A stretch of DNA of 64,000 bases. Source: Rhabdaerophilum sp. SD176 (GTDB lineage Bacteria; Pseudomonadota; Alphaproteobacteria; Rhizobiales; Beijerinckiaceae). The translations under genes were made by a program, and so were the position numbers. The notes beneath the pieces were generated by a model. It was not told the DNA's origin. It was given only the letters and a program-made list of their open reading frames with translations, and ran no database searches. Below are positions 8,577 to 46,411 of this stretch, piece by piece. The stretch lies in assembly GCF_030143245.1 (NCBI RefSeq), contig NZ_JARJNS010000001.1, positions 434,001-498,000 on the forward strand, in the 5' to 3' direction. Position 1 is the stretch's first letter. Each line of letters starts with the position of its first letter.

Positions 8577-9731
8577 ATGACCGAAATCGCCCCGTCCCAG
8601 CAACCGCGCGTCATCGCGGCGGCGATCCTGCTGGTCACGCTGGTCGGCGTGTCGCTGGCGCTGTCGAACCCGCTCCTTTCGCTCGAAATGGAGCGCTGGG
8701 GCCTGTCCAGCACCATTGCCGGGCTGACGGCCTCGGCCGCCGGGCTCGGTACCGTGCTGGCCGTCCCGCTCGTTCCACGCACGGCCCGCCGGCTTGGCGT
8801 CCCGCTGACGCTCGGCCTCTCGCTGGTCGCGGCTTCGGGCGGCATGATCCTCTTCTGGCTCTGGCAGGATGTCTGGGCATGGACGGCCCTGCGCTTCCTG
8901 CTGGGCTGCGCGATCGGCGTGGTCTTCACGCTGTCGGAATTCTGGATCAATGCCGCTGCCGATCCTGCCCGGCGCGGCACGATCATGGGCATCTATGCCA
9001 CGGCGCTCTATGCCGGATTTGCCAGCGGCCCCCTGCTGCTCGCCCTCTCGGGCACGACCGGCTTTGCGCCCTATGCCCTCACGGCTTTGCTGATCGCCCT
9101 CGGCCTGATCCCACTGCTCCTCGCCGGAAAGAATACGCCGCGCGTCGACCAGCCGGCCTCGCATTCCGTCCTGCGCTTCGTGATTGCCGTGCCGACCGCG
9201 ACGTTCGGCGCCCTCATCTTCGGCGCGGCGGAAACAGGAATCATTGTCCAGTTGCCGGTCCACAATGTCCGGCTCGGCTACCCGGAACAGGATGCTGCCC
9301 TGCTCCTCTCCGCCTTCACGCTCGGCAATGTGCTGATGCAGATGCCGCTCGGCTGGCTGTCCGACCGGATGGACCGGCGGGTGCTGCTGTTCATCCTCGC
9401 CACGAGTTCAGCCCTTCTCGCCCTGACCTTGCCATTCGGGCCGCCGGGCTTCTGGTCGTTCTCTTTCCTGCTCTTCCTGCTCGGCGGGGCCTCCGGCGCG
9501 ATCTACACCGTCGGGCTTGCGCATCTCGGCGCGCGTTTTTCGGGGGCTGATCTCGCGGCCGCCAATGCCGCCTTCGTGCTTCTGTATTCGGTGGGGCTGA
9601 TGATCGGCCCGCCGGTGATCGGCCTGGGCATGGACCATCTCGGCCGTCTCGGCCTGCCGGTGGCAATGACGGCCATGTTCGGGCTCTATGCCCTGCTGGT
9701 CCTCGCACGGATGCGCAGCGGCCCGCGATGA
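8577..9731 (+). CDS. Major facilitator superfamily transporter (YcaD-like)
   Basis: A 384-residue protein with about twelve hydrophobic segments. The typical MFS inter-helix motif [10 protein letters not shown] lies near residue 260, between helices 8 and 9 in this compact architecture. Overall length and layout resemble the YcaD group, but the substrate is unknown. The frame is open upstream to 8301; the ATG at 8577 is preferred because the first membrane helix starts about 12 residues later. Such an MFS gene often neighbours rpmG in Hyphomicrobiales. Confidence 0.85.
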
Positions 9732-9771
9732 GCGCGCTGCACTTTCTCGGCTCCAGCCCGACCGTTTGGGC

Positions 9772-9800
9772 TTGACTTGGGCTCGGCTTTCCGCAATACG
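9772..9800 (+). promoter_or_regulatory. Promoter of rpmG
   Basis: TTGACT at 9772-9777, a 17 bp spacer and AATACG at 9795-9800 form a good vegetative promoter. The expected start near 9807 would give a leader of about 80 nt before rpmG. It lies in the 154 bp gap after the MFS gene. Confidence 0.6.
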
Positions 9801-9885
9801 ACCGTCCGGTGCTGGGCTCTTCGCCCGGCTATTCGTTTCACGCGATGTGCGGGCCAACAGGGCCCAGTTCTCGCCGGAGGTTCCC

Positions 9886-10053
9886 ATGGCCAAGGCCACC
9901 ACGATCAAGATCAAGCTGCTGTCGACGGCGGATACGGGCTATTTTTACGTCACGAAGAAGAATGCCCGCACGGCCACCGAAAAGCTGGCCTTCAAGAAGT
10001 ATGATCCGGTTGCCAAGAAGCACGTGGAATTCAAGGAAACCAAGATCAAGTAA
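9886..10053 (+). CDS. rpmG: 50S ribosomal protein L33
   Basis: A 55-residue basic protein with the L33 pattern: [20 protein letters not shown] at the start, then [11 protein letters not shown] and a lysine-rich end (FKETKIK). The two CxxC pairs of zinc-binding L33 are absent, so this is the cysteine-free C- form that does not need zinc. CGGAGG at 9875-9880 is a good ribosome site. It is monocistronic, with its own promoter and a strong terminator. Confidence 0.97.
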
Positions 10054-10080
10054 GGTGGATTTCCACCGCCTGACGACCAG

Positions 10081-10102
10081 GGCGCCGCAAGGCGCCTTTT
10101 TT
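10081..10102 (+). terminator. Intrinsic terminator of rpmG
   Basis: GGCGCC (10081-10086), loop GCAA, GGCGCC (10091-10096), then six T. It is a textbook Rho-independent terminator 27 bases after the rpmG stop. Confidence 0.92.
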
Positions 10103-10140
10103 GTTGCCCGGAATTCAGCCGCGTTTCCGTTTCCGGCGTC

Positions 10141-10358
10141 GGTTCAGGGCCGGGTAGCGGGCGTGGCGATTTCTCGGGAGATTTTTCTAGGCACCCCCGG
10201 AAGCTTGGTTCCGGAAGGGTGGCCGGCCCAGAAAGGAAGACGAGGAGGCAACTCACTCCCCTTCTGAGCCGGCCGAACCTCGTGGGACGCAGGAGATGCG
10301 GCGGACCTGAACATCCCGCGAGGGATTCCTGTGCCACGCAGGCAGGCGCGGCAGAACC
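10141..10358 (+). ncRNA. Unidentified structured RNA candidate between rpmG and pleD
   Basis: This 218-base segment fills most of the gap between the rpmG terminator and the end of pleD. It folds by eye into one closed shape. The ends pair as GGTTC (10141-10145) with GAACC (10354-10358), GCCG (10149-10152) with CGGC (10349-10352), and GCGTGGC (10161-10167) with GCCACGC (10333-10339). A long inner arm pairs 10207-10258 with 10274 and beyond: GGCCGGC (10221-10227) with GCCGGCC (10268-10274), CAGAA with TTCTG, and GAGGAG with CTC-A-CTC closed by a GCAA tetraloop at 10248-10251. ATCCC-GCGA-GGGAT (10313-10326) is a second GNRA hairpin. GNRA loops arise only on the plus strand, which favours that strand. 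The shape, closed ends plus a long arm and a small hairpin in the 3' bubble, recalls 6S RNA, but no family is established. It carries no SRP, RNase P or tmRNA hallmark. No clear promoter or T-run end was found. Confidence 0.45.
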
Positions 10359-10377
10359 CTCAGGCTAAGCGAGTCGC

Positions 10378-10399
10378 GGGGAGAAGCAAGAGGCCTTGC
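10378..10399 (-). terminator. Weak terminator candidate of pleD
   Basis: On the minus strand GCAAG-GCCT-CTTGC (10399-10386) is followed by TTCTCCCC. The stem is only five pairs and the T-run is short, so this could simply be part of the neighbouring structured element. Confidence 0.35.
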
Positions 10400-10408
10400 G
10401 GTCTGCCG

Positions 10409-11779
10409 TCACGCAGCGATGCGCACGCAGTTCCGACCGGCGCGCTTGGCTTCGTACATGGCTTTGTCGGCGTTCTTGAACAGCGAATCCCCGCTGCGCA
10501 GCGAGGCTCCAGCCGTGGCCACACCGATCGAGGCGGTCACGCGGAGCGTCTTCGTGCCGTTCGCCACGGAAAAGGGTTGATTGTCGATTGACTGGCGGAT
10601 GCGTTCCGCCACGCGCTGGGCGGCGAAAGGCTCGGTATCGGGCATGGCGACAACAAACTCCTCGCCGCCGAACCGGGCAACGATGTCGATGCCGCGCACT
10701 GCCTGTCGCAGACGTTCCGCGCATTCACGGAGCACCTCGTCGCCGACATCATGGCCATGCTGGTCATTGATCGACTTGAAGTGATCGAGGTCGAGCACCA
10801 GAAGGGAAACCGCGGCCCCGCGGGCTGTATCATCGGCCAGCAGGCTCTGGAGCTGCGTATGAAGGAAGCGGCGATTATGCAGCTTCGTCAGCGGATCGAC
10901 GATGGCAAGTTCCATCGAAGCGCGAAGATTGTCGCGCAGGCGCTCCTGATAGCGCCATTTGCGGATCTGCGTCGTCACCCGGGCGATCAGCTCGTTCCGG
11001 TCGATCGGGCGGATCAGATAATCATTGACGCCCATATCGATCGCCCGGGTCACCAGCGGATCGCTGATCGCTTCCGCGAGGACGAGAATCGGCAGGTTGC
11101 GCAAGCCATTGTCCGAACGGATCTGCGAGATCAGCCGCAGCGGATCGGCCTCGTGGAGGCCGAGACTGATGATCGCGACATCATATCCGCCCTCCTGCAC
11201 CTGCTGGAGGACGTTCTGCGCATGGGCCTCGATCTCGACGACATGATGCTGCTTCAGCGCAGCGCTCATCCGGTCAGCGGCATTCGCGCGGTCTTCCACC
11301 AGCAGGATGCGCCCGTTCTGCCCGTCTTCAGCCGCCGCCATCGAAAGCGGGTCCGGCAGGCCGAGGCCCTGGGTGCCGGCCGCGCGGGCACGCAACTCAT
11401 CGGTCAGGTGCTTGAGCCGCACCAGCGAGCGGACGCGGGTCAGCAGGGCGAGTTCGTTGATCGGCTTGGTCAGGAAATCATCGGCGCCGGCCTGAAGCCC
11501 GGTCAGGCGATCGGAGGGGCTGTCCAGCGCGGTGACCATGATCACGGGGAGATGCGCGGTCTGCGGGGCGGATTTCAGCCGCCGGCAGACCTCGTAGCCG
11601 TCCATGCCGGGCATCATCACGTCGAGCAGCACGACGTCGCATTCGCCGCGCTCGCAGATATCCAGCGCCTGCGGGCCCGACATGGCCGTGAGCACGGTGA
11701 AGTACTCGGCCGTCAGCCGCGCTTCGAGCAGGCGGATATTCGCGAACACATCGTCGACGATCAGGACGCGTGCGGTCAT
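10409..11779 (-). CDS. pleD: Response regulator / diguanylate cyclase PleD
   Basis: A 456-residue REC-REC-GGDEF protein that makes cyclic di-GMP. The first receiver (about 1-125) has the phospho-acceptor Asp53 in VVLLDVMMPG. The second receiver (about 155-275) is the adaptor-type pseudo-receiver used in dimerisation. The cyclase domain has GGEEF at residues 371-375. The inhibitory I-site RGID at 362-365 is intact, so product inhibition is expected. In Caulobacter PleD drives the swarmer-to-stalked transition. Here it follows divK in the same direction, 14 bases away, so an operon is likely. Its 3' end faces rpmG. Confidence 0.96.
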   Translation of the reverse strand: MTARVLIVDDVFANIRLLEARLTAEYFTVLTAMSGPQALDICERGECDVVLLDVMMPGMDGYEVCRRLKSAPQTAHLPVIMVTALDSPSDRLTGLQAGADDFLTKPINELALLTRVRSLVRLKHLTDELRARAAGTQGLGLPDPLSMAAAEDGQNGRILLVEDRANAADRMSAALKQHHVVEIEAHAQNVLQQVQEGGYDVAIISLGLHEADPLRLISQIRSDNGLRNLPILVLAEAISDPLVTRAIDMGVNDYLIRPIDRNELIARVTTQIRKWRYQERLRDNLRASMELAIVDPLTKLHNRRFLHTQLQSLLADDTARGAAVSLLVLDLDHFKSINDQHGHDVGDEVLRECAERLRQAVRGIDIVARFGGEEFVVAMPDTEPFAAQRVAERIRQSIDNQPFSVANGTKTLRVTASIGVATAGASLRSGDSLFKNADKAMYEAKRAGRNCVRIAA

Positions 11780-11793
11780 GCCGATTTCAACCC

Positions 11794-12159
11794 TTACCCG
11801 ATAAAGCTTCGCACAGTCTCGATGAACTTCGCGACCGAGATGGGCTTCGAAAGATATCCCTCGCAGCCCGATTCGCGGATCCGCTCCTCATCGCCCTTCA
11901 TGGCAAAAGCCGTGATCGCGATGACGGGAATCGGCCGCATGTCATCGTCCTCCTTGAGGAGTTTGATGACATCGATGCCGGACACTTCCGGCAGCTGGAT
12001 ATCCATCAGGATGAGGTCGGGGCGATGCGTCCGCGCCAGTTCAAGCCCTTCAAGGCCCGACCTGGACTTGAGCGTCGCATAGCCATGCGCTTCAAGCAGA
12101 TCGTTGAAGAGCTTCATGTTGAGGTCATTATCCTCAACGATCAGAACTTTCTTGCTCAT
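11794..12159 (-). CDS. divK: Single-domain response regulator DivK
   Basis: A 121-residue stand-alone receiver domain. The acidic pair E9-D10, phospho-acceptor Asp53 ([13 protein letters not shown]), and the conserved Thr (ITAFA) and Lys (LSKPIS) are all present. The length and sequence match DivK, which in alphaproteobacteria controls cell polarity and CtrA activity through the DivJ/PleC kinases. It is the first gene of the divK-pleD pair. The 200 bp upstream region is shared with the divergent DUF3572 gene; I see no complete CtrA box TTAA-N7-TTAA there. Confidence 0.95.
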
Positions 12160-46326: not shown

Positions 46327-46411
46327 TGGTGCGGACGAGAGGACTCGAACCTCCACGGTGTTACCCACTAGCACCTCAAGCTAGCGCGTCTACCAATTCC
46401 GCCACGACCGC
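46327..46411 (-). tRNA. tRNA-Leu (anticodon GAG)
   Basis: An 85-base tRNA with encoded CCA. The order is acceptor GCGGTCG, D-arm with GGTAGACGC, anticodon stem CTAGC/GCTAG around TTGAGGT (anticodon GAG at 46377-46375), a long variable arm with GTGGGTAACACC, the T-arm with TTCGAGT, and acceptor CGTCCGC-A-CCA. It reads CUC and CUU. The fifth acceptor pair is U5-U68 rather than a Watson-Crick pair; all other acceptor pairs match. Its promoter lies at 46452-46480. Confidence 0.96.

Follow-up and report, generated by a model that had tools for sequence, protein, structure and literature searches.

An EcpR1 small RNA gene beside pleD in Rhabdaerophilum sp. SD176 and its probable contact with the gcrA ribosome site

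The stretch of DNA considered here, 64,000 nt from Rhabdaerophilum sp. SD176 (referred to below as the window), includes rpmG and pleD and the gap between them. rpmG, which encodes ribosomal protein L33 (9886..10053, plus strand; TIGR01023, 73.2 bits against a cut-off of 23.95), is followed by a predicted intrinsic terminator (10079..10102, plus strand). pleD lies on the minus strand at 10409..11779 (NF007135 equivalog, 618 bits against a cut-off of 474). On the minus strand at 11794..12159 is a gene for a single-domain response regulator, presumably divK, a name that we take from its position before pleD; its product had receiver-domain matches, none of them over cut-off among the 25 listed. 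A tRNA gene was found elsewhere in the window (46330-46411, minus strand, 52.1 bits).

Judged by its sequence, the gap between rpmG and pleD almost certainly holds a real RNA gene of a known family, EcpR1. The Rfam covariance model RF02500 (Atu_C6/EcpR1) matched positions 10326-10216 of the minus strand with 76.4 bits, compared to a gathering score of 60, and the match spans model positions 1-113 of 113 (E 6.7e-9 over the 64,000-nt window). The plus strand of the same locus reached only 19.6 bits (E 2.7), as expected of a near-palindromic hairpin. EcpR1 is single-copy in this genome at E<=0.001. The core small RNA (10216..10326, minus strand) is convergent with rpmG, and pleD is directly upstream on the same strand. 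All sequence-level features that define RF02500 were found, namely the model score, the loop of stem-loop 1 (SL1), a second stem-loop (SL2) and the place between pleD and rpmG on the pleD strand. SL1 (10278..10323, minus strand) was delimited from the minus-strand fold and the alignment. Its loop motif UCCGCCGCAUCU (10294..10305, minus strand) is an exact match to the published EcpR1 motif (PMC4414408, excerpt), and all 12 columns are invariant in 29 of 29 EcpR1 sequences. SL2 (10221..10274, minus strand) has a stable, variable and covarying stem, with changes on both sides in 9 of the 12 pairs of its main helix, and is topped by UUGCCUCCUCG, the UCCUCG loop expected of the family, the final bases of which are paired in the fold of this genome.

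The orientation follows from the alignment. Over 29 EcpR1 sequences and 20 consensus pairs, the minus-strand reading gave 487 Watson-Crick, 65 G-U, 8 A-C and 20 other cells. The 65 G-U cells would become mismatches on the plus strand, an asymmetry that favors the minus strand. Changes on both sides were seen in 11 of the 20 pairs, with 46 double-change cells where shuffling gave 15.1 (none of 500 shuffles reached this count), and sliding the pair partner by 1 to 3 columns lowered them to 1-13. This covariation confirms the model rather than discovers it, because the sequences are related and were collected with the covariance model. Wobble pairs, covariation, a conserved minus-strand promoter and the position beside pleD all agree with EcpR1 on the minus strand.

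The predicted promoter is of sigma70 type and is located just after the pleD stop codon (10362..10390, minus strand), with a -35 element CTTGCT (10390-10385), a 17-nt spacer and a -10 element TAGCCT (10367-10362). A similar motif is present in most of 16 aligned congeners, being less clear in a few, among them G287, G354 and G401. A strict sigma70 scan of positions 9600-10800 returned no promoter on either strand; its consensus is that of Escherichia coli and omits the EcpR1 promoter. From these elements we infer a transcription start near 10355, about 29 nt upstream of the 5′ end of the core. Likewise, two 5′ ends separated by 29 nt are reported for EcpR1 of Sinorhizobium meliloti (PMC4414408, excerpt). 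At the other end the transcript would stop near 10216. The SL2 stem is strong, but CACCCUUCC, a poor U tract, comes next in the source genome and in four close relatives. The tract at 10220-10213 of the minus strand is weak (ACCCUUCC), likewise in the loci L162-L165, and U runs are present in several other congeners. This is a difference from S. meliloti EcpR1, for which a Rho-independent terminator with terminal U residues has been described, a feature outside the Rfam definition.

EcpR1 is widespread in the order, where 271 of 397 sampled genomes carry the family (223 of them over cut-off), and was found in 16 of the 17 genomes of the genus (14 over cut-off). From at least 590 loci encoding pleD relatives, the 80 top-ranked ones, a few of them distant, were examined; 16 of these had EcpR1 at E<=0.01, and in every case it followed the pleD match, downstream and in the same orientation. 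One further locus (L063) gave a borderline match (E 0.18) yet carries the SL1 motif. Of 20 genomes from the family to which the source belongs, 9 have the RNA at E<=1e-5; the other 11 had no match or one at chance level only (four at E 0.27-0.93). These 11 are G042 and G147 (both of genus g2), all eight of genus g3, and G329 (g7). In addition, three pleD loci named as Methylobacterium or Methylorubrum (L049, L050, L053) had no EcpR1 at E<=1. EcpR1 thus appears to be absent from several genera of its own family. In Methylosinus sporium 5 the RNA is likewise beside rpmG and has two stem-loops, and its transcript was sequenced; in the excerpted account no target is assigned, and the predictions of two programs overlap minimally (PMC12403871, excerpt).

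The best-studied relative for comparison is EcpR1 of S. meliloti (also SmelC291, sra33 or smrC10), which shares the SL1 motif, the two stem-loops and the (divK-)pleD/rpmG location. It is induced by stress and ppGpp and represses gcrA and dnaA via the SL1 loop, and Hfq is not needed (PMC4414408, excerpt). The gcrA site is placed 13 nt downstream of a start at -122, i.e., near -109 (PMC4414408, excerpt), and the mechanism of gcrA repression is called still unknown in a review (PMC7143759, excerpt). By homology, EcpR1 in Rhabdaerophilum would be an RNA of stress and stationary phase that lowers GcrA and slows the cell cycle.

The contacts known from S. meliloti, which lie outside the Rfam definition of the family, were poorly reproduced by computation in this genome. 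The SL1 loop paired with the organism's own gcrA no better than 37% of 1496 random pieces did, and with its own dnaA no better than 79% of them (59% if an alternative dnaA start is taken). No favorable SL1 contact was found at -160 to -60 of gcrA, in which respect this genome differs from S. meliloti, and neither SL1 nor SL2 made a good contact with dnaA. In contrast to S. meliloti, SL2 is able to pair with the Shine-Dalgarno of gcrA. Ahead of A-ATG, the ribosome site of this gene reads AGGAAGGCGAGGAGGCAAC, and the plus strand of the window at 10234-10252 reads AGGAAGACGAGGAGGCAAC; therefore the SL2 loop and its 3′ arm (10234..10252, minus strand; 12-nt core 10241-10252) can form 19 contiguous pairs with it, one of them G-U. 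This match was first spotted by eye in the output of the SL1-loop pairing and was tested afterwards.

The SL2-gcrA Shine-Dalgarno duplex has an energy of -38.9 kcal/mol, compared to -28.7 for the best of 381 background gene starts of the same genome. When the costs of opening both RNAs were included, the best contact comprised 13 pairs at -15.8 with an 80-nt leader, and none of 376 background genes was as good (mean -2.8, sd 2.8, best -14.5). This net energy shifts with the length of the leader, being -16.0 at 170 nt and -12.5 at 200 nt. Background genes were mechanical, not curated, open reading frames from about 460 kb of the genome; several starts per gene were allowed in the set of 381 and only the first start in that of 376. 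In the whole genome, the wobble-tolerant 19-mer occurred exactly only at EcpR1 itself and at the gcrA ribosome site. Three more places had one mismatch, and with up to two mismatches there were 79 matches vs 68 for the reversed control. The complement of the 12-nt core, CGAGGAGGCAAC, is found at four genome sites, one in EcpR1, one at the ribosome site of gcrA and two in what appear on inspection to be coding regions. The core of the match is a strong Shine-Dalgarno, and some of the complementarity is no more than an anti-Shine-Dalgarno. Cofolding of EcpR1 with the gcrA leader placed the SL2-Shine-Dalgarno contact in the minimum-energy dimer of this genome at 0 of 3 leader lengths. This result speaks against the contact but is weak evidence, because such a calculation cannot represent a contact made by the loop while the SL2 stem stays closed.

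It is reasonable to think, from these sequence comparisons, that contact of SL2 with the Shine-Dalgarno is the more probable way in which EcpR1 meets gcrA in this organism, replacing the SL1 leader contact of S. meliloti. The SL2 loop GUUGCCUCCUCG, extended by the 3′ arm, would pair with the gcrA Shine-Dalgarno and block ribosome binding. In the excerpts of open-licence literature on EcpR1 and gcrA small RNAs, we found no published contact of this kind for EcpR1. Another alphaproteobacterial RNA, CcnA of Caulobacter crescentus, is likewise proposed to mask the ribosome site of gcrA through a loop; unlike EcpR1, it does so with a CCCC loop facing GGGG and also raises CtrA (PMC8959179, excerpt). 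Taken as a whole, the explanation that combines an EcpR1 gene, its own promoter, lowering of GcrA and an SL2 contact with the gcrA Shine-Dalgarno seems to us quite likely.

Both contacts were compared across genomes with one energy measure and a 5% cut taken from 600 control windows, the regions and the cut being fixed after a first look at the contact energies. The congener set comprised 15 of the 17 genomes of the genus, counting the source; G400, in which gcrA is cut by a contig end, and G403, which has no EcpR1 and is 78% complete, were excluded. Start codons were set by hand in G301, G366 and G378, and in G397 a further in-frame ATG precedes the start that was taken. The other-genus set was obtained from 30 genomes by removing G114, which had no GcrA match, and four of the genus including the source. 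These 25 genomes, which are not a random draw, are the best-scoring EcpR1 matches, with one over-sampled family (f24) thinned by hand, together with all five matched genomes from other genera of the source's own family. As to GcrA itself, its family PF07750 also passed cut-off in the control genome of the archaeon Sulfolobus acidocaldarius, perhaps a cross-match of the DNA-binding domain, and G238, of the same family as the source, has five extra matches to the C-terminal third of GcrA only.

Of the 15 congeners, 12 passed the 5% cut (-2.8) for SL2 at the gcrA Shine-Dalgarno and 11 reached -8 or better; of the 25 genomes from other genera, 4 and 1 did so, respectively. SL1 at -160 to -60 of gcrA passed its cut (-8.0) in 1 of 15 congeners and 11 of 25 other-genus genomes; ten of these 11 sites fall between -100 and -118, near the position published for S. 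meliloti. These contrasts are not independent events, because the genomes within each set are related. The congeners G399, G287 and G401 lack the SL2 contact and G082 has a weaker one (-5.8). Cofolding in the 15 congeners, source included, gave the contact at all three leader lengths in three (G402, G404, G405), at one of three lengths in G407 and G409, and at none in nine, with one stray pair in G397. Searching 17 congeners for CGAGGAGGCA-N1-8-ATG returned 37 matches, of which 11 are gcrA by position, vs 3 for the reversed control. Of 30 matches with loci, 9 are gcrA, one open reading frame recurs in three genomes and the rest occur once each; the recurring frame, with inconsistent lengths (22, 87 and 202 aa), is taken as spurious.

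Two genomes deserve mention on their own. G168, which belongs to another family (gcrA locus L142, EcpR1 locus L018), has a strong SL2-Shine-Dalgarno contact at -13.7 kcal/mol, possibly an independent gain. In G405 (gcrA locus L181) an SL1 site at -82 exists alongside an SL2 site, and this genome is a possible intermediate between the two contact states. There is no signal of coevolution between SL2 and gcrA, because matched pairs were no better than mismatched ones (permutation values of 0.21 for 15 pairs and 0.35 for 10 pairs within the genus, and 0.70 for the 25 other-genus pairs); within the genus, SL2 and gcrA covary no further than the motif they share. We give an even chance to the broader proposal that the EcpR1-gcrA interaction was rewired within the genus: the contact would have left SL1 and a leader site some 100-140 nt before the start codon in favor of SL2 and the Shine-Dalgarno, with direct blocking of the ribosome.

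One alternative is that SL2 targets many mRNAs as a general anti-Shine-Dalgarno arm, and that gcrA is simply one of these. The UCCUCG-type loop of SL2 is indeed kept widely in the order, including genera whose gcrA lacks a matching site, and anti-Shine-Dalgarno loops have been described for further small RNAs of rhizobia (PMC3927594, excerpt). However, CGAGGAGGCAAC occurs at only four sites in the genome, and gcrA outdoes the best of the 381 background gene starts by 10 kcal/mol. We regard general action as rather unlikely.

It was also considered that EcpR1 acts exactly as in S. meliloti, its SL1 loop contacting gcrA and dnaA, in which case SL2 would be terminator-like and its match to gcrA accidental. 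The SL1 loop is invariant in all 29 sequences and has been proven to make the contact in S. meliloti (PMC4414408, excerpt), and cofolding left SL2 out of contact here at all three leader lengths. On the other hand, the pairing of this loop with the organism's own gcrA and dnaA was no better than random (37% and 79% of the 1496 pieces as good), the -160 to -60 region of gcrA offered it no favorable contact, and an accidental 19-nt match placed precisely at the Shine-Dalgarno of a known target is unlikely. Action through SL1 only is doubtful in view of these results.

The gap had been described in a sequence-only reading as a closed, unassigned structured RNA of about 218 bases on the plus strand, resembling 6S RNA. 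That a structured RNA gene lies there, with a conserved and covarying core, was borne out; the strand, the extent, the lack of an assignment and the likeness to 6S were not. The Rfam search that it called for gave RF02500 at 76.4 bits, and the covariation and helix conservation that it asked to be checked are both present, but for the EcpR1 core on the minus strand. The plus strand can indeed take the fold proposed for it (-108.4 kcal/mol, z -4.0, equalled by 0 of 200 shuffles). This minimum-energy structure contains the closing helices that were listed and a GAG-GCAA-CTC hairpin at 10245-10254; the GCGA hairpin is missing from it. The minus strand (-107.9, z -4.7, 0 of 200 shuffles as good) lies further below its own shuffles. 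In four close relatives, only 7, 12, 10 and 9 of the 21 outer closing pairs (10141-10168 with 10332-10358) are kept, so that the closed unit is not conserved. For 17 further plus-strand pairs starting below 10216 the counts are 10, 11, 13 and 12, and all 34 pairs starting inside 10216-10326 are kept in each relative. Across five close genomes including the source, invariant positions number 109 of 111 in the EcpR1 match vs 11 of 75 in the 10141-10215 flank, with 28 of 29 in the promoter and 20 of 35 between promoter and EcpR1. From helix retention and these counts, the conserved unit is EcpR1 with its promoter and not a 218-base loop; the core is about 111 nt and the primary transcript perhaps about 140 nt. 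The statement that GNRA loops occur only on the plus strand carries little information: the GCAA simply mirrors, as its complement, a portion of the SL2 loop of EcpR1. The outermost helix proposed, GGTTC with GAACC, is unlikely to form within one transcript, since GAACC (10354-10358) lies at the predicted EcpR1 start and GGTTC (10141) 75 nt past the end of the match.

A separate plus-strand RNA of that size retains the fold statistic (z -4.0) in its favor and is very improbable: its closing helices are not conserved, its flank is only 11 of 75 invariant, the asymmetry of G-U over A-C pairs favors the minus strand, and the gap starts right after the rpmG terminator; the strict promoter scan is indecisive here because it found nothing on either strand. 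We reject this candidate on the helices, the invariant-position contrast and the wobble asymmetry. A 6S or 6S-like RNA, suggested by a closed layout seen by eye that is all the locus shares with 6S, has next to no chance and was set aside, as RF00013 of Rfam matched nowhere in the window at gathering score and nowhere in 9800-10600 even at E<=10, and the one clear 6S RNA of the genome lies elsewhere (C17:239947-240104, 86.7 bits).

The RNA gene itself was already known, and what is new is the probable place of contact between EcpR1 and gcrA, SL2 at the Shine-Dalgarno. If this is true, a small RNA would have kept its target while changing both the hairpin that binds and the site that is bound, with both states present in living relatives. 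In this organism, gcrA would gain a direct route of repression at its ribosome site.
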